Origin: a virus
Virus record (IMG/VR): IMGVR_UViG_3300027763_000144
Coordinates: 1-34,166 of that record
Reading direction: 5' to 3' (one strand)
Length of the DNA: 34,166 nucleotides
Shown: one piece after another, positions 1,263-16,193 of the stretch
How positions within the stretch are numbered: position 1 is the first letter of the stretch
Layout of the letters: every line of letters starts with the position of its first letter
The notes under the pieces: generated by a model
The model's input: the letters and a program-made list of their open reading frames with translations, nothing else
Told to the model about the DNA's origin: nothing
Databases searched by the model: none
Translations under genes and position numbers: made by a program

Positions 1263-4200
1263 CTATATAACTACAGCATAAGGGCTACCATAACTTCCAG
1301 CAACACTCCAGATGGTTGCTTCAGCATTGTTTGCATAATACACTAAATTATACTGAGTATTAGTATATGGATGTGTATAATACGCATAATATGCGCTAGG
1401 GCTTGAAAGTGAAGGTGAATGAGAAGTACTACTAACTGTTCTGTTTGTTTGGTACTTCATTTCTATCATAGATATTCCACCTGTAAATTGTGGATTAAAT
1501 AGCTTAATTTCTGCAACTATTCCTGGAGAACCTACAGTTCCTGAAGTTGATGCATTACCTTCGTATCTAATAAGTATAAATCTATTTTGAGCATCAACTC
1601 TGTATAGTAGTCTTTGCATAGTGTTATTACCACCGCTCCAAACAAGTTTGTTGTAAGGAACAGCACTTGCAGCTGTTGAGTTAACAAAACCAGCTGAAAG
1701 AGCAGTACCTGTAGTACCAAAAACCATCCAAGCATTTTCATTAACCAGTACGTTTGTAAAATTAGTATTATTAATTTTAAATGAAAAAGGTAGTGGTATT
1801 GAAACGTAGCTATCAGCCGTAGCAGTAGCATTGGTTAAAAGTGTCCAGCCTTTTGCAGGATAACTAAAATTTAAAGTTGTTGATAGTGCTGTAGAAAGCT
1901 CATAAGCAGTTAAACCTTGAGGATTATACTGTACTATATTAGCAACGCTAAATACGGGGGCACTACCTGTAGAAGTATCGCTAATTGTTACTTGACTAGA
2001 AGTACCTACTGTGTACCTAATACCTCCAGTATTATAGTAAACTAACAAGCTAATAGCTTCTGTGCCTTCAGTGTAGCTATCGCTTGTATAACTAAGAGTT
2101 ACTTGTCCGACGCTGTCTGTTATTGTTACGCTTCCAGCAACACTGGGATAATAGCTGCCAAATTCATTAATACTTATACTTCCAGTATTAGCAATTAAGT
2201 TATAATAAAGTGTACCACTTATAAAACCAGTAGTTACTATATTAAAGGTTACACTTTGCCCTTCTGTTATACTACTAGCGGTTGGAGTAATTACTGCTGT
2301 AGCTCCAGTACTAATTGCAGTTACTTCTACATATCCGTTACTAGTGTTGCTACCTCCCCAACTATAGTTGTTAACAAGCTGCAAATTATAATAAGAACCA
2401 CCACAACCGCCAGCTGCTGTAGTACTACTTGTTCCGCCAGTATATCCGCCACCAGCACCACCGTCATCTAAATCGCCACCACCACCACCAAAACCACCAA
2501 TACCTCCTTCACCTACAGCACCTCCGCCATTAAAACGCAAGCCTGCTCCACTACCCAAACCATCACTAAACCAACCAGTACCACTACCGCCGCCGGCACC
2601 AGCATTTGCAGCACCTTGTCCGTCAGTAGGAGTAGCTCTTATAGAAGCACTATTAAGTCCAGCATAAAAATCTTCACGAGCACTTTGACCAGCAGTAAGT
2701 CCATCGTCGTCCGCACCACCGCCACCACCTGCAGCAAATATTAAACCTGTGCCGCCAACACTGCCAGTGTACACAAAAGTACCGCCACCGCCACCGCCAC
2801 CAACACCAGTGGTGCCAGCATTAGCGCCTTGTTTTCCTACTACAATGTTTACTACTTGACCGCGAGTTAGTAGTACGTCACCATTTAAAATAGCTCCCAA
2901 ACCCCCAGTGCCTCCTTGTGATTGCTGTACCCAATTGCCACCTTTGGCTCCTGCTACTTTAAATCGGTATACCCCAGTAAAAGGAACAGTCCACTGCTGT
3001 ATTCCAGAAGTAACATTATAGTAACTAGTATTATTTAACCAAGGATACCTGCTAGTACTGTAAATGCTGGCAAGAAATGTAGCAAGAGAAGTAGCCGTGT
3101 TATTGCCGTAGCCTCCACCGTATGTTATATCAGCAGCATAATTATGTCCACTTAAAAATTTAAAAGTTGAAAAATTGTATAAGTCTACAGGTTCTGCTGT
3201 ACCTGTTGAGGTGTCATTAACTATAAAATCTGAGCTAGTTAGTTCTGTGTTATTAGTTAATGATACTGTTAATTTAAAAGTTTCTGCACCTTCAGTAAAT
3301 GTATCTGCACGTGGTTTTACTGTAATTGTACTACTTCCACCATTAGTAACAGTTAATGTACCGCTATTAACTGTAAAAAAATCTGATACAGTAGGTACTG
3401 ATTTTACTAAACCTGAAGTTGTGTATATAGGTAGTGTTGCCACTATAGAAGGCGGAGTAAAATCATTAGTATATAAAGCAGCTCCTTTAACAATTCTTAA
3501 ATTTCTTAAATAACCATAAAAATTATACGATGATAATCCATAAGGAGTACCTCCAATAGTAGGGTAAGAAGAATTGTATGCTAATGCACCGCTAATACCA
3601 GTAGTAGTTAAAGCCGAGTCTAATACTCCATTTACATAACCTCTAAACGTTGTGCCTTCTCTAACTATTGCTATATGAGACCATGTATTAGTAGGTACAC
3701 TAATAGTTCCTGTTTTATCAAAGGTTGAACTAGTACCATCTAATGAGCAAGCAAATCGTAAAACATTACTAGCTGTTAAAATTACTGTAAGTGGGCCAGC
3801 ATTTGGGCTAGCATTAAAGTAACCCTTACTATAAATACATTGCAGCCTCTCCAACTGAGGATTTATCCAAGTTTCAAAAGTCCAGTCTGAAGAATCAAAG
3901 TCAAAATTAGTAGGATTGCTGGGGGTAATAACAAGTGAATCTACCCCTGAAATAACATAAATACCAATTGATTGACCACTATAGGTTGTAGTTGTAGCAT
4001 AGACACCAGATCCTTCTCCATAAATATCAGTACCATACATACTATAATTATAACTACCATTATCAACTAATGTTGTTGATTGTGCTGTTAATAACATTGT
4101 ATTTGATAGCACACTGGATGTATTTGCTAATTGGTTTATTACCCAGTTTAAGGTTCCACTATAGTTTGTGGTATTTACTACAAAAGCATTTGTTGTGCCT

Positions 4201-5393
4201 TCATTTATGCTAGCTATAGGCACAATAGTTGCTGTTGGCTGTAGTGGGGTTGTTACAGTAATAACTTGTGATGTGCCGTATAAGTAGCCACTAGTACTTT
4301 GCGCACGAAATTGTACTTGAAAAGTAGTTTCTGCTTCACTATAGTTAAAGTTATTAAGTGCAGTTAGGGTAATACCACCTGCACTTAGTTGAAAGTTTCC
4401 GCTTTGAGGACTAAATTTACTGGCAGCACTGCCTGTAATAATATAATAAATAGTAGTTTCTTGAGCATTTTGAATAGCAACATCAAAACGTATAGTTGTA
4501 CCTTTTTCTACTGTAGTTGCAGAAGGCGTAATTGTAGTTGTAGGTGTAGTACTAGTATCTATAATATTTATGTTTACAGTGCCTAGTGTCCAGCCATACT
4601 GTGCACTTGTTACAGTTATAGTTAAAGGTTCTGTGCCTTCAGTTAAGTAGTCTTTTTTACCGTAAATGTAGCCACTAATTCCATCATAGTTATTATTATC
4701 TACACCATTTGAAAAATATGTAGGATAATATATTAAATCTTGAGTTGTTGCAGTTCCAGAGTAAGCTATACTATAGATTTTTTCTGATACGGTGTTTGAG
4801 GTACCTACATTAGCCCAAGTAAGAGTTAAATACCATCCAGACTGAGTTTCGTCAAACTGTGTATAACTACTAAGATAAGGTACAAAATTTAGTGTAGGTA
4901 TAGGCGTAGGTATAGTAATAATTGAAGTGGTATTAACTATAGGCCCAGTAACGCTATCAGTTCGTATACTAACCGTAAATTGAATTGGTTGAAGGGTAGG
5001 ATTTGGTTCTTTATCCGTAGCTGGGTATATTGAAAATTGACCAGTGCCATTTACGCCAGTACCTTGTGTAAATGCTCCCCTTAAAACCGTTGTGGCATAG
5101 GGGGTACCACAAACATAATCATATAAAACCGTGGGAGCACTAATAGTTTCTAGTGTCCAGTATAGTGTAGTACCAGCAGGCACATCGTCACTAGTATTAG
5201 TTATTGTAATACTAGGACCATTGTTATACATAGTGTAACTACTAGCAGTTACAGATTTTGAATATTTTGGAGTAGCTGGCCAAATATTGCTTTTTTTCGC
5301 ATTATAGGCGTCAAAACTATCAAACACACCAGAAGAGCGTGTTAAAGAAGGAGTATATGAGAAACTATTAATAATTCCACTATTTCTACGCAT
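1263..5393 (-). CDS. Large tail adhesin with Calx-beta-like repeats, a LamG-like domain and a glycine-rich domain
   Basis: The 1,376-residue product is a mosaic of extracellular-type beta modules and is very rich in Thr, Ser, Asn and Gly. Three segments carry the TEGxE...DTST signature of Calx-beta domains (about residues 244-283, 698-733 and 1101-1143). A LamG/concanavalin-like domain spans about 478-651, with WTFETWINP, WSHIAIVREG and FYGYLRNLRIVKGAALY as landmarks. A glycine-rich domain (about 800-1025) has long Gly runs, GGGGDLDD and a closing GYVEV strand. The C-terminal 230 residues form a separate beta domain. LamG folds often bind glycans, so host-surface binding is likely. The start overlaps the previous stop (TAATG), with GGGAG upstream. 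No catalytic motif, signal peptide or coiled coil is seen. It is probably the distal adhesin of this unit; virion location is inferred. Confidence 0.85.
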   Translation of the reverse strand: MRRNSGIINSFSYTPSLTRSSGVFDSFDAYNAKKSNIWPATPKYSKSVTASSYTMYNNGPSITITNTSDDVPAGTTLYWTLETISAPTVLYDYVCGTPYATTVLRGAFTQGTGVNGTGQFSIYPATDKEPNPTLQPIQFTVSIRTDSVTGPIVNTTSIITIPTPIPTLNFVPYLSSYTQFDETQSGWYLTLTWANVGTSNTVSEKIYSIAYSGTATTQDLIYYPTYFSNGVDNNNYDGISGYIYGKKDYLTEGTEPLTITVTSAQYGWTLGTVNINIIDTSTTPTTTITPSATTVEKGTTIRFDVAIQNAQETTIYYIITGSAASKFSPQSGNFQLSAGGITLTALNNFNYSEAETTFQVQFRAQSTSGYLYGTSQVITVTTPLQPTATIVPIASINEGTTNAFVVNTTNYSGTLNWVINQLANTSSVLSNTMLLTAQSTTLVDNGSYNYSMYGTDIYGEGSGVYATTTTYSGQSIGIYVISGVDSLVITPSNPTNFDFDSSDWTFETWINPQLERLQCIYSKGYFNASPNAGPLTVILTASNVLRFACSLDGTSSTFDKTGTISVPTNTWSHIAIVREGTTFRGYVNGVLDSALTTTGISGALAYNSSYPTIGGTPYGLSSYNFYGYLRNLRIVKGAALYTNDFTPPSIVATLPIYTTSGLVKSVPTVSDFFTVNSGTLTVTNGGSSTITVKPRADTFTEGAETFKLTVSLTNNTELTSSDFIVNDTSTGTAEPVDLYNFSTFKFLSGHNYAADITYGGGYGNNTATSLATFLASIYSTSRYPWLNNTSYYNVTSGIQQWTVPFTGVYRFKVAGAKGGNWVQQSQGGTGGLGAILNGDVLLTRGQVVNIVVGKQGANAGTTGVGGGGGGGTFVYTGSVGGTGLIFAAGGGGGADDDGLTAGQSAREDFYAGLNSASIRATPTDGQGAANAGAGGGSGTGWFSDGLGSGAGLRFNGGGAVGEGGIGGFGGGGGDLDDGGAGGGYTGGTSSTTAAGGCGGSYYNLQLVNNYSWGGSNTSNGYVEVTAISTGATAVITPTASSITEGQSVTFNIVTTGFISGTLYYNLIANTGSISINEFGSYYPSVAGSVTITDSVGQVTLSYTSDSYTEGTEAISLLVYYNTGGIRYTVGTSSQVTISDTSTGSAPVFSVANIVQYNPQGLTAYELSTALSTTLNFSYPAKGWTLLTNATATADSYVSIPLPFSFKINNTNFTNVLVNENAWMVFGTTGTALSAGFVNSTAASAVPYNKLVWSGGNNTMQRLLYRVDAQNRFILIRYEGNASTSGTVGSPGIVAEIKLFNPQFTGGISMIEMKYQTNRTVSSTSHSPSLSSPSAYYAYYTHPYTNTQYNLVYYANNAEATIWSVAGSYGSPYAVVI

Positions 5394-10065: not shown

Positions 10066-10650
10066 TTATCTTGTAACTTCTGGTACTAAGGAAACAGTTC
10101 CGCCAGCAAAAGGTACAACAGTAGTACCTTTTACTAACTCTAAACTATACACAGCTTGTTTAAATGTTAGTGTTTGTGTTACGCTTGCAGGAATACTAAA
10201 AACTATTGTTTTTAAAGTATTATCTATTTGAATTAAACCATTCTCAGTTGTTAACTCTAGCAAAACGGTAGGTGAAGTAAGTTTTTCACGAATTTGCATA
10301 CGTCCAGTTATACCAACTAAATCAATTGGTTGGTTATACTCTAAGATACCTCCGCTAGTATAGTTGCTATAAGTTGCACTATTTATAGCATTAAAAGTTA
10401 GAGTATCTGCAGTTGTTGCTGTATTGCTAATATAGTCAAAATTAGCAACTTCTTTCATGCCGCCAATATTTGTTAGCTTTGTGCGCCAACCTACGGGCAC
10501 CCCGTGAGCTGGCGCGGTTACTACCATAGGTGCTGTTTTACTAATAGCAGTAATTGGTATATATTTTTTAGTACTAGATTCCCATCTAAGTACTTTACTA
10601 AAAGTGCTGCCTTGATATACTTTTATGTTTAATTTAATTGGTGCTACCAT
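10066..10650 (-). CDS. Beta-rich tail protein with an inserted FCCH-like module
   Basis: The 194-residue product has a split outer domain. It begins KLNIKVYQGSTFSKVLRW and resumes at QPIDLVGITGRMQIREK (about 107-123), continuing with LLELTTENGLIQID, VYSLELV and a final VSLVPEVTR. I know this pattern from phage tail proteins related to the N-terminal domain of receptor-binding or baseplate proteins. Between residues 38 and 105 sits a small module with AHGVPVG, NIGGMKEV and YSNYTSGG, resembling the short beta module often annotated as 'E1 FCCH-like' in phage proteins. The ATG has a strong ribosome site (AAAGGAG, six bases away) and overlaps the upstream gene by 17 bases. Probably a small structural tail part; the exact position in the virion is unknown. 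Confidence 0.78.
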   Translation of the reverse strand: MVAPIKLNIKVYQGSTFSKVLRWESSTKKYIPITAISKTAPMVVTAPAHGVPVGWRTKLTNIGGMKEVANFDYISNTATTADTLTFNAINSATYSNYTSGGILEYNQPIDLVGITGRMQIREKLTSPTVLLELTTENGLIQIDNTLKTIVFSIPASVTQTLTFKQAVYSLELVKGTTVVPFAGGTVSLVPEVTR

Positions 10651-10987
10651 TTGGCTCTCCTTTGTGCAGTATAACTTGAAGCCTAGTAACTTCTCTTGTT
10701 AGTACTATTACTTCTTGTTGTAAACGTTGGTTTTCAACAGTTAATTTTTGTAATTGATTATTTAATTTTATTACTTCTTGTTGCAGCCTACCAAGTTCTA
10801 GACTTAAAGATGTATTTTGTTGAGACATGCGCTCTAATTCATTGTGCATTAGGGTAATAATAGAGCTCTCAGCAGTATTAGCCTTCCAATTAGTAAATAG
10901 TTTTTTGCTTAAAAATACTAATGCTATAGTGCAAGCAACAAACTCTCCTAGATACTGTGTAAGTATAGATGTTTCATTTGGACCCAT
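10634..10987 (-). CDS. Membrane-anchored coiled-coil protein, function uncertain (spanin- or holin-like topology)
   Basis: The 117-residue product has one hydrophobic segment (about residues 11-30, YLGEFVACTIALVFL) followed by positively charged residues and a long heptad-rich coiled coil (about 45-108) with Leu, Ile and Val at heptad positions and many Gln and Glu. It is the first gene after promoter P2, with a leader of about 100 bases. I chose the ATG at 10987 because AAAGGA stands seven bases upstream; an ATG 30 bases earlier would put that ribosome site inside the gene. An N-terminal anchor with a coiled coil would fit an inner spanin, but a spanin-like gene already lies at the left edge, so this could instead be a holin-like or superinfection-related protein. 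I cannot decide between these. Confidence 0.75.
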   Translation of the reverse strand: MGPNETSILTQYLGEFVACTIALVFLSKKLFTNWKANTAESSIITLMHNELERMSQQNTSLSLELGRLQQEVIKLNNQLQKLTVENQRLQQEVIVLTREVTRLQVILHKGEPNGSTN

Positions 10988-11094
10988 TTTAATTCCTTTA
11001 AAAATGAATATAAGCAAAAATTATAGTCCATATGTATTTTTGCACAATTATTAAAATAAATAATTATAATTAATTTACCCATTATTTTGGTATT
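10988..11094 (-). other. AT-rich untranslated leader of unit 3
   Basis: This stretch between the P2 -10 box and the first gene is strongly AT-rich with TTAATTATAATTATTTATTT-type sequence. It carries the AAAGGA ribosome site at its end. I see no supported gene, stable hairpin or riboswitch in it. Confidence 0.6.
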
Positions 11095-11123
11095 ATTATA
11101 CCATTTAAGCTAAGGTATGTCAA
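11095..11123 (-). promoter_or_regulatory. Promoter P2, exact sigma-70 consensus
   Basis: TTGACA (11118-11123) and TATAAT (11095-11100) match the consensus perfectly, with the ideal 17-base spacer and extended -10 TGGTATAAT. It begins three bases after the terminator's T-run. Transcription would start near 11088 with a leader of about 100 AT-rich bases before the coiled-coil gene at 10987. A six-base inverted repeat (TGGTAT-N4-ATACCA, 11088-11103) covers the -10 and start point. Confidence 0.9.
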
Positions 11124-11125
11124 CA

Positions 11126-11155
11126 TAAAAAAATACCAGCCCTAAAGCTGGTATT
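11126..11155 (-). terminator. Intrinsic terminator ending unit 2, bidirectional
   Basis: A nine-base-pair stem (AATACCAGC/GCTGGTATT) with a six-base loop is followed on the minus strand by a run of seven Ts, the classic Rho-independent form. On the plus strand ATTTTTT also follows, so it could act in both directions. It sits between the 49-codon gene and promoter P2. Confidence 0.88.
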
Positions 11156-11164
11156 ATTTTTTAT

Positions 11165-11314
11165 TTAACCATTGTATTTTGGTTCTATTTCTTTATTATC
11201 TTTAAAATTTTTATGTTCTAAATAACAGCCGCCTACTAGTGCTAAACCTATAAGTAAATCATAAAAAAATTGTTGTAAGCATAACTTATTGAGGATATGT
11301 TTCAAGAATTTCAT
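11165..11314 (-). CDS. Putative 49-residue small membrane protein or lipoprotein
   Basis: This short reading frame begins with ATG inside the 3' end of the heme-oxygenase-like gene (30-base overlap, different frame) and stops at 11165, ten bases before the hairpin of the intrinsic terminator. The product starts MKFLKHILNKL, has a hydrophobic stretch DLLIGLALVGGC ending in a possible lipobox (LVGGC, Cys at residue 30), and finishes with a charged tail (KNFKDNKEIEPKYNG). The hydrophobic-then-charged pattern and the fit into an otherwise unexplained gap support a real gene. Against it, the ribosome site is weak (no clear GGAG before the ATG), so it would rely on coupling. If real, it could be a small lipoprotein such as an outer spanin or an exclusion factor; this is speculative. 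Confidence 0.5.
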   Translation of the reverse strand: MKFLKHILNKLCLQQFFYDLLIGLALVGGCYLEHKNFKDNKEIEPKYNG

Positions 11315-11792
11315 CCATTGAATCTAATAAAGCTTTAAAACAATCTCTTGCTGGTTGAATAACTCCAGGAGATTCTCGCAGTTGAGTTAAACATTTAAGT
11401 GCTTCAGGGCGACTATCCCAAGATAGGTGTTCAGTAGGAAAACCTTCTAGTCGCCTGCGCATAATTTCACCGCCCATTAAGTGAGCTCCTGTTAGCACGT
11501 ACGCCGCACCAACTATTGCTGTTGAGTTAGTTAGTGTATTTGCGTAATTTTCAGCTGCTTTAATTGAAGTTACTTCAATATTAAGTGTAGCAATATCTGT
11601 TTTAATACGCTGAACACGATGTACTGTGCTTGGTAAATGTTGATCTACAACTTCATGTAGTTGCAATAAAACTTGTAGCCAAGCTCTATACCATATAGCA
11701 GGGGGTTTACCTATTGCCATTACACCTCCAACAGGATGTTGTTCACAAGCATGATGTAAGTCTCGTGTTGCGTTCCATAGTTCACTATTCAT
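11286..11792 (-). CDS. Heme-oxygenase-like protein
   Basis: The 168-residue, mostly helical product resembles bacterial heme oxygenases, which cut heme to biliverdin, iron and carbon monoxide using host reductant. Landmarks in family order: LWNATRDLHHACEQHP (residues 5-20), with His13 in the place of the proximal heme ligand (pattern AT..LH...E); WYRAWLQVLLQLHEVVD (34-50), like the second helix; and AAYVLTGAHLMGGEIMRRRL (96-115), matching the glycine-kinked distal helix (YVL.G..LGG..I). It is somewhat shorter than typical bacterial members (roughly 190-230). The start overlaps the upstream stop as ATGA. No other heme or bilin gene is in the window, so its place in a tail operon is unusual. 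Related helical folds (TenA-like or iron-binding oxidases) are alternatives. Homology is likely; activity is untested. Confidence 0.75.
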   Translation of the reverse strand: MNSELWNATRDLHHACEQHPVGGVMAIGKPPAIWYRAWLQVLLQLHEVVDQHLPSTVHRVQRIKTDIATLNIEVTSIKAAENYANTLTNSTAIVGAAYVLTGAHLMGGEIMRRRLEGFPTEHLSWDSRPEALKCLTQLRESPGVIQPARDCFKALLDSMDEILETYPQ

Positions 11793-12292
11793 GTTGTGCT
11801 TTCATTAAATAACATATCAATTTTACTGTACTCAGTTTCTGGGTCTATTTCAAATAAATTTAGTAGTTGTGCTACTTGCTGTATAAGAGGACTAGTTCTA
11901 TCTACGTCTACACTATATTCCCAATAAATTTGTATTTCTTTTGACAATGTTTTAACGGTTTCTTGCCAAGTATCTAATAAATTATTTTTTAGCAATGTTA
12001 AACGAAAATTACTATTACTAACTACTTTAGTACAATTAAAAGTATTAAGTATATGTTTTTGTTTAAGTATATTCCACTCTTCTTCTGAAATTTCTTTTAA
12101 AAACCCTTCTACATTTGTATCTGCAGAGTCTGCACAAGTACCAAATAAATAAGGTATACCTATTGTTAAAGATTCTTGCCACTCTACATGAATTCCTTCA
12201 ATATCAGGAAAAACTAACTCATTTATAGAAGGTTCTTTTAGTGCACTTATTCTAGTTTTTTTATCTATATAAGTAAATACTATATACTTCAT
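11789..12292 (-). CDS. Tail-fibre-associated accessory protein (assembly-like C-terminal domain)
   Basis: The 167-residue product has an N-terminal half of unknown type (MKYIVFTYIDKKTRIS) with ISEEEWNILKQ near its middle. The C-terminal 80 residues follow a pattern I know from phage proteins encoded beside tail fibres: a start like VSNSNFRLTLLKNNLLD, a helix, YWEYSVDVDRTSPLIQQVA and a final IDMLFNES. In relatives this reads as 'R...ALL..GLLD', then 'W.....F.R..P.V..LA', then 'LD.LF..A'. It follows the 1,119-residue adhesin after one base, suggesting it assists that protein's assembly or attachment. The start at 12292 has only a distant AAGGG, so coupling is probable. Assignment is moderate and partly from context. 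Confidence 0.6.
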   Translation of the reverse strand: MKYIVFTYIDKKTRISALKEPSINELVFPDIEGIHVEWQESLTIGIPYLFGTCADSADTNVEGFLKEISEEEWNILKQKHILNTFNCTKVVSNSNFRLTLLKNNLLDTWQETVKTLSKEIQIYWEYSVDVDRTSPLIQQVAQLLNLFEIDPETEYSKIDMLFNESTT

Positions 12293-15659: not shown

Positions 15660-16193
15660 TTAGGTCTCGTATATGTGTTCGGACGACGCTTTTTCTTCGC
15701 CAGTAGCCCATAGTTGTATAAGTTTAGTAGTAGTATCAGTAACAGTGTCAGAAGATGCTCTTATCTGTATTCTATCACCTTTAGTAGCTAAGTAATCTCT
15801 TTTAAATAAACTCCTACCTTGAACTGGTATCATAGCAGTATCAGTTGCAGGTATTGTCATTAAACCAGGACACTGAATTGCAGCAGCTGTTTCTGCTGCT
15901 GCATCTGCGTAAGTTCCTTCAGGTACTATTCTTACCTCAATAGTACATAAAACCCCGTCGGTAGCTGGAGTAATATTTCTTACAAAAATAGGTGTCATAA
16001 AAAATATTTCGCCAGGCCTAATACCGCGACCAGCGGTATTAGTAGGGTCTCTATCTATATATAATTTTCTAGCGTCTGGCACTGAAAAATCAGGTGCTTC
16101 GGCTATAGTTACCCATGTGTTTGATGCTACATTATTATTATAATAATTTATAAACTTACCTGTAGAAGGTGTTTTACAATAAATTCTTGCCAC
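15660..16193 (-). CDS. Small beta-rich virion-type protein, GTG start
   Basis: The 177-residue product begins (M)ARIYCKTPSTGKFINYY and is predicted beta-rich, with GRGIRPGEIFFMTPIFVRNI, CTIEVRIVPEG, a central PATDTAMIPVQGRSLFKRDYL, and GDRIQIRASS near the end. The GTG start overlaps the preceding TAG (TAGTG) and has an excellent ribosome site (AGGAG, six to seven bases away), which supports this unusual start over any internal ATG. Its strand pattern and the final 'GDRIQIRAS' recall the 120-residue protein of unit 3, so the two may be distant relatives serving the same role beside different fibres. I cannot name a family. Position between two giant fibres suggests a connector or decoration protein. 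Confidence 0.78.
   Translation of the reverse strand: MARIYCKTPSTGKFINYYNNNVASNTWVTIAEAPDFSVPDARKLYIDRDPTNTAGRGIRPGEIFFMTPIFVRNITPATDGVLCTIEVRIVPEGTYADAAAETAAAIQCPGLMTIPATDTAMIPVQGRSLFKRDYLATKGDRIQIRASSDTVTDTTTKLIQLWATGEEKASSEHIYET

Follow-up and report, generated by a model that had tools for sequence, protein, structure and literature searches.

Heme oxygenases cleave the heme ring and so release its iron. Among the bacterial ones, BphO is associated with phytochrome and PigA with the uptake of heme; to our knowledge, neither has been found with fibre genes. In HO-1, His25 is the heme ligand, Tyr134 and Arg183 form hydrogen bonds to the porphyrin and Gly143 is a further contact, and the human enzyme becomes a peroxidase when Asp140 is replaced by alanine (PMC5623701). 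Replacement of Gly139 also turns human HO-1 into a peroxidase, according to the title of reference 13 in PMC5542595.

The phage heme oxygenases of the literature come with pigment genes, and one that was taken from a pigment cassette is enzymatically active (PMC11480375). Heme oxygenase has also been listed, without context, among the auxiliary metabolic genes of Lake Baikal viral metatranscriptomes (PMC9611531). Phage heme oxygenases have so far been explained by light-harvesting pigments; the family described here is tied to fibre and lysis genes instead, which suggests that phages outside pigment cassettes break down heme as a function of late infection. It has in common with the HemO of cyanophages and pelagiphages, found with PcyX, PebS or PcyA (PMC11480375), that it is phage-borne and occurs in aquatic environments, whereas gene context, the basis of this comparison, separates their pigment cassette from the fibre/lysis setting seen here. 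A place of the new family in the bilin pathway was considered and rejected: ferredoxin-dependent bilin reductase (FDBR; PF05996) occurred in 0/44 contigs, some of which may be fragments, while the Synechococcus control was positive. That no bilin gene is in view of the gene itself, as a first-pass annotation had stated, was also borne out.

The gene lies on a virus record of 34,166 nt that comes from an environmental sample (IMG/VR IMGVR_UViG_3300027763_000144), the whole of which was analysed and is called the window below.

The gene and its transcription unit

The open reading frame of the heme-oxygenase-family (HO) gene (Table 1) is a true gene, and purifying selection on it is strong (dN/dS 0.08-0.10 against its three nearest relatives). 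Both the frame and its ATGA overlap with the upstream one are present as first annotated, and the tail-fibre neighbourhood proposed for the gene was confirmed. The transcription unit runs from the 1359-aa tail fibre gene through the genes of the 177-aa protein, the 1119-aa fibre-like protein and the 167-aa protein to HO, which ends it and is followed by a hairpin and then by a promoter. With a fibre gene on one side and HO on the other, the 167-aa protein fills the slot of a small protein or fibre chaperone. In many relatives, a homologue of the 1119-aa fibre-like protein is encoded immediately upstream of HO.

Directly behind the hairpin, the promoter splits the fibre region into two transcription units, the second of which holds the coiled-coil protein and the phrog_1084 gene. 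In one relative (L052) the phrog_1084 protein encoded after HO matches phrog_3304 (L-shaped tail fibre assembly) as well. At one end the window has an endolysin gene (188-850) and a fibre-assembly-like gene, at the other a tape-measure protein; it is probably a fragment.

Table 1. Features of the HO transcription unit and of the unit behind it, in window positions.
Feature	Position	Strand	Remarks
Phrog_1084 protein	10066..10650	(-)	3e-20
127-aa protein	10634..11017	(-)	by reading, one transmembrane segment and coiled coil; holin-like place in relatives
Sigma-70-type promoter of next unit	11095..11123	(-)	12/12, TTGACA-17-TATAAT, extended -10; consensus match only
Terminator hairpin, end of HO transcription unit	11132..11155	(-)	terminator-like, both strands
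HO gene	11286..11792	(-)	168 aa, ATG start; ORF list and profile, structure and selection evidence
HO codon R139	11376-11378	(-)	
HO codons G107/G108	11469-11474	(-)	
HO codon H104	11481-11483	(-)	
HO codon H46	11655-11657	(-)	
HO codon H13	11754-11756	(-)	
167-aa protein	11789..12292	(-)	ATGA overlap with HO gene; weak PHROG matches, function-unknown families
Large fibre-like protein, 1119 aa	12294..15653	(-)	weak Lcl_C-domain match
177-aa module protein	15660..16193	(-)	in relatives conserved, flanked by both large fibre genes
Tail fibre protein, 1359 aa	16193..20272	(-)	phrog_5342 tail fiber, 1.2e-11

Family membership and the heme pocket

The phage protein belongs to the heme oxygenase family (PF01126 in the broad sense), of which it is a short (168 aa), phage-specific member with the HO-1 fold. 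The assignment proposed at first pass holds on profile, AlphaFold (AF2) fold and residue mapping. The Pfam search suggested with it gave a divided answer: PF01126 is matched by 32 of 44 relatives (best 2.9e-6), and the protein of the window taken alone stays under the Pfam cut-off (15.1 bits, E 0.021; gathering score 23). When a profile of the 44 sequences was run against the PDB, 25 of the 26 matches at E<=1 were heme oxygenases (best 2.6e-4), the sole other match being marginal (E 0.94). The comparison with BphO-type profiles, also suggested earlier, yielded a profile-profile match of 1.6e-9 to an alignment of bacterial BphO/HemO-type enzymes (A2). A search of NCBIfam returned no heme-oxygenase name for the protein, and PHROGs returned nothing for it.

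The AF2 model was built on the 44-sequence alignment and reached a pLDDT of 96 and a pTM of 0.92; without the alignment the pLDDT is only 48. As far as overall fold and alignment ranges go, the structural check proposed at first pass came out in favour of a heme oxygenase. The model superposes on the solved rat HO-1, where VIA-align aligned 168/168 residues (Z 18.9, 2.6 Å), and the best fold matches are heme oxygenases and not a non-heme helical family, as were all of the 50 Foldseek matches listed. The nearest viral folds are two BFVD entries from uncultured Caudovirales that are named heme oxygenase (A0A6J5KN38 and A0A6J5RJ96; TM 0.86-0.90), which differ in being only 15-18% identical to the phage HO. 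In several VIA rows the alignment ranges pair model residue 1 with HO-1 residue 13. With this offset of 12, H13 falls on His25, and the sequence alignment agrees.

Down to about 35% identity, the 44 relatives have T9, H13, H14, C16, E17, H19, W38, H46, D50, D66, Y98, G102, H104, G107, G108, H122, R139 and F152 invariant. The three motifs quoted at first pass (ATRDLHHACE with H13, WYRAWLQVLLQLHE and YVLTGAHLMGGEI) were all found, and these invariant residues together with the low dN/dS make them more than chance.

All 44 sequences were mapped on human HO-1; residues 16-185 of the reference sequence used agree with PDB alignments. With the HO-1/HmuO-type enzymes (PF01126) the phage HO shares the full-length fold (Z ~18-19), the distal helix and an equal spacing from Tyr134 to Gly143-Gly144. 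The proximal His25 is H13, invariant in 44/44 and also in the sister group. Glu29 (E17), Tyr134 (Y98), Arg183 (R139), Gly143/Gly144 (G107/G108), Asp92 (D66) and Phe207 (F152) are likewise invariant in the 44 sequences; Lys22 is R10 (43 R, 1 K), and Arg85 (R59) and Glu62 (D50) are invariant or nearly so. The proximal His and the glycine-kinked distal helix of the earlier annotation thus stand. Among the kept residues are the ligand of the iron, the residue hydrogen-bonded to that ligand, the propionate-binding set (Lys22, Tyr134 and Arg183) and porphyrin contacts. Lys18 and Lys179 are not kept (W6 and L135).

Apart from its length, some 40 residues below that of the solved domains, and an identity of about 14-18%, the phage HO differs from the HO-1/HmuO-type enzymes in its distal residues. 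Asp140 is replaced by H104, Tyr58 by H46, Gly139 by A103, Arg136 by L100, Asn210 by L155 and His132 by A96. The Asp140-Tyr58-Arg136-Asn210 hydrogen-bond network is absent, with H104, H46, L100 and L155 in its place, and, judged from the alignment, membership in the HO-1/HmuO-type subfamily with a distal Asp is excluded. The invariant His at the Asp140 position had been missed at first pass. In the sister group, position 104 is H, H and Y, one member carries D at position 14, and A and Q occur at positions 16 and 46.

Bacterial BphO/HemO-type enzymes (A2; P. aeruginosa PigA/HemO) share with the phage HO the proximal His, an acidic residue at 29, in many cases a His in place of Tyr58, and the absence of a distal Asp, the Asp140 column containing N, K, T, S or R. 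Therefore, loss of the Asp alone is no argument against oxygenase activity. They differ in a distal motif of their own that is one residue shorter (EGSxLG), in Gly144, which is mostly Ala, and in having no Arg183 equivalent by alignment. The phage family offers a natural remodelling of the distal pocket at residues that separate oxygenase from peroxidase chemistry, and a natural sequence set for testing how a heme oxygenase could activate oxygen without the distal aspartate.

Distribution and gene neighbourhoods

The family is widespread in viral metagenomes, with relatives encoded at at least 146 loci in IMG/VR, and is absent from the 50,697 phage records searched by tblastn with three divergent members; the plasmids searched held no homologue. 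A pattern scan of GTDB gave three contigs, all of which we take to be Rhodobacteraceae, two of the three being named at genus level. Among Rhodobacteraceae genomes, 5/395 had matches, one of them weak only. We considered whether the gene is a host bacterial gene acquired by chance and set this aside for two of three genome loci: every gene of L130 has its counterpart in the viral contig L203, and L132 has the same fibre module. Both look like prophages, and the third genome locus, L131, has no fibre module in its surroundings. One member (L014:7983-8660) has a C-terminal extension of about 55 residues that is rich in Trp, Pro and Asp.

Neighbour clustering covered 80 loci, which collapse into 34 lineages when HO identity is cut at 85%; 17 loci whose HO was missed by the simple gene caller were left out of the neighbourhood count. 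The proposal to look for the same gene beside tail genes in other phages proved fruitful, as tail or virion genes lie at most 4 or 5 genes from HO in 26/34 lineages. A frequent order is a fibre (cluster 1), a protein of about 150 aa (cluster 3), a fibre-like protein (cluster 4 or 2), a small protein and HO. Downstream of HO come, in one type, tail-fibre-assembly-like genes (phrog_3304/1084) and, in the other, holin-like and endolysin genes (M15 peptidase, GH19). The fibre module with HO occurs on different backbones, including Rhodobacterales prophage-like regions in which baseplate-hub and NlpC/P60 genes come after it, and the fibres that adjoin HO fall into several unrelated clusters. In a clade of 17 loci HO lies away from tail genes, among genes for an RlpA-like lytic transglycosylase, an L,D-transpeptidase and a Dps-like ferritin. 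Across these varied settings the HO gene thus acts as late cargo at the fibre/lysis boundary and is not part of one fibre system.

Some neighbours lie outside these patterns. At L080:8186-10043 and L017:8852-10537, the genes after HO encode SLOG-like (L080), RNaseH-like, L,D-transpeptidase and Dps proteins and form a non-structural block that is conserved. A 354-aa protein with TPR and glycosyltransferase-2-like parts (cluster 13; L037:434-1495) is encoded 2 or 3 genes before HO in several lineages, and methyltransferase genes (Methyltransf_24, FkbM) stand directly upstream of HO at L054:7466-8005 and L055:3677-4357, with no fibre genes near. PADLOC returned an empty result, giving no link to defence.

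Heme, iron and the proposed function

Our leading reading, to which we give a probability of about 0.6, is that the protein, expressed late, acts as a heme oxygenase and opens the heme of the host. Heme binding is very likely. Production in the host cytoplasm, late in infection, is suggested by the lack of a leader sequence and by the fibre operon. There, host heme b would be bound via His13, with Arg10, Tyr98 and Arg139 gripping the propionates, and electrons would come from the ferredoxin/flavodoxin-NADP reductase of the host, or from a phage-encoded one in one relative. The invariant His104 and His46 would order the distal water and deliver protons, the role of Asp140 and Tyr58 in human HO-1, and the macrocycle would be opened to give biliverdin, CO and Fe2+. 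The gain for the phage may be iron, removal of heme or both during late protein production, and not iron for its own fibres.

As a leading hypothesis, the release of iron from host heme is reasonable, and it is helped both by the Dps-like ferritins that several relatives have and by a gene directly upstream of HO in L084. The latter (L084:7263-7997; PF00970+PF00175) encodes a ferredoxin-NADP(H) reductase (FPR), lies 3 nt upstream of HO and matches P. aeruginosa FPR (2qdx) at 2.3e-59. The P. aeruginosa Fpr is the implicated electron donor for PigA/HemO (PMC6018153), so that the partner of PigA is also found beside one phage HO copy. In L084, a contig of low quality, the HO frame is shifted by one base close to a C run, which is probably a sequencing error. 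Since FPR was found in only 1/44 contigs and a 2Fe-2S ferredoxin in 0/44, the donor must usually be the host's. The L084 contig also encodes a 2OG-Fe(II) oxygenase and, by reading, an LpxC-like protein.

Counted against an oxygenase is that the Tyr58-Arg136-Asp140-Asn210 network and His132 are all replaced, with Ala at 139 and His at 140. With His at 58 as well, the protein could be a heme-binding HO relative that has lost oxygenase function, and its distal pocket could act as a peroxidase- or catalase-like site, a heme buffer or a bis-His heme carrier and protect late infection from heme or peroxide. The invariant His104 and Ala103 stand at the two positions that, when mutated, make human HO-1 a peroxidase (PMC5623701; for one of them, the reference list of PMC5542595), position 104 is nearly fixed as His even in the sister group, and the heme-anchoring side is largely kept. 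However, bacterial BphO/HemO-type enzymes are also without Asp140, an electron donor for heme oxygenase is encoded directly upstream in L084 and no peroxidase-linked neighbour was seen, so we consider such a loss of activity rather unlikely.

The replaced distal network also suits a fold repurposed for tail-fibre assembly, as a fibre chaperone or virion component for which heme is irrelevant or only structural. This would fit the association with the fibre module in 26/34 lineages, in many of which HO sits directly between fibre and fibre-assembly-like genes, and the ATGA coupling in the window. It is made quite doubtful by the heme-pocket and heme-anchoring residues among the invariant ones, by the unrelated clusters of the neighbouring fibres, by the 17-locus clade among cell-wall and Dps genes and by the dedicated chaperone already possible in relatives (PF16778 in L034). 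A non-heme di-iron enzyme (HO-like oxidase) or other metalloenzyme using H14, E17, H46, D50, H104 and H122 would account for the large number of His and carboxylate residues that never vary in the viral set. We consider it very improbable, as the sister group does not retain all of H14, C16 and H46, and the best matches, by sequence and by fold, are heme oxygenases that bind heme.

We also give little credence to the idea that the phage HO clade is a functional cargo of tail-fibre modules, swapped together with receptor-binding fibres because the phages would enter via heme or iron receptors and the enzyme (or a heme-loaded peroxidase-like form) would exploit or remove host heme. If true, the choice of receptor would be tied to heme catabolism, and natural His/Ala substitutions would be in use at the oxygenase/peroxidase switch positions of HO-1.

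Under the oxygenase reading that we prefer, the destination of the iron proposed at first pass, the tail proteins, found no support. Iron loading has been proposed for T4-type fibres (PMC11705849), and the fibre clusters next to HO are nearly without HxH motifs (per 1000 aa, 0.03-0.04 in clusters 2 and 4 and 0.8 in cluster 1), which leaves T4-style loading of these fibres unsupported.

No ferritin-family gene occurs within the window. Ferritin genes were found in 4/44 contigs; L002 carries two such genes and an HO that shares 86% identity with that of the window. On L129, the contig of this closest long relative, two Dps/ferritin-like genes (3798-4589 and 4696-5157), one of them N-terminally extended, are flanked by PhoH-like and ribonucleotide-reductase-like genes.
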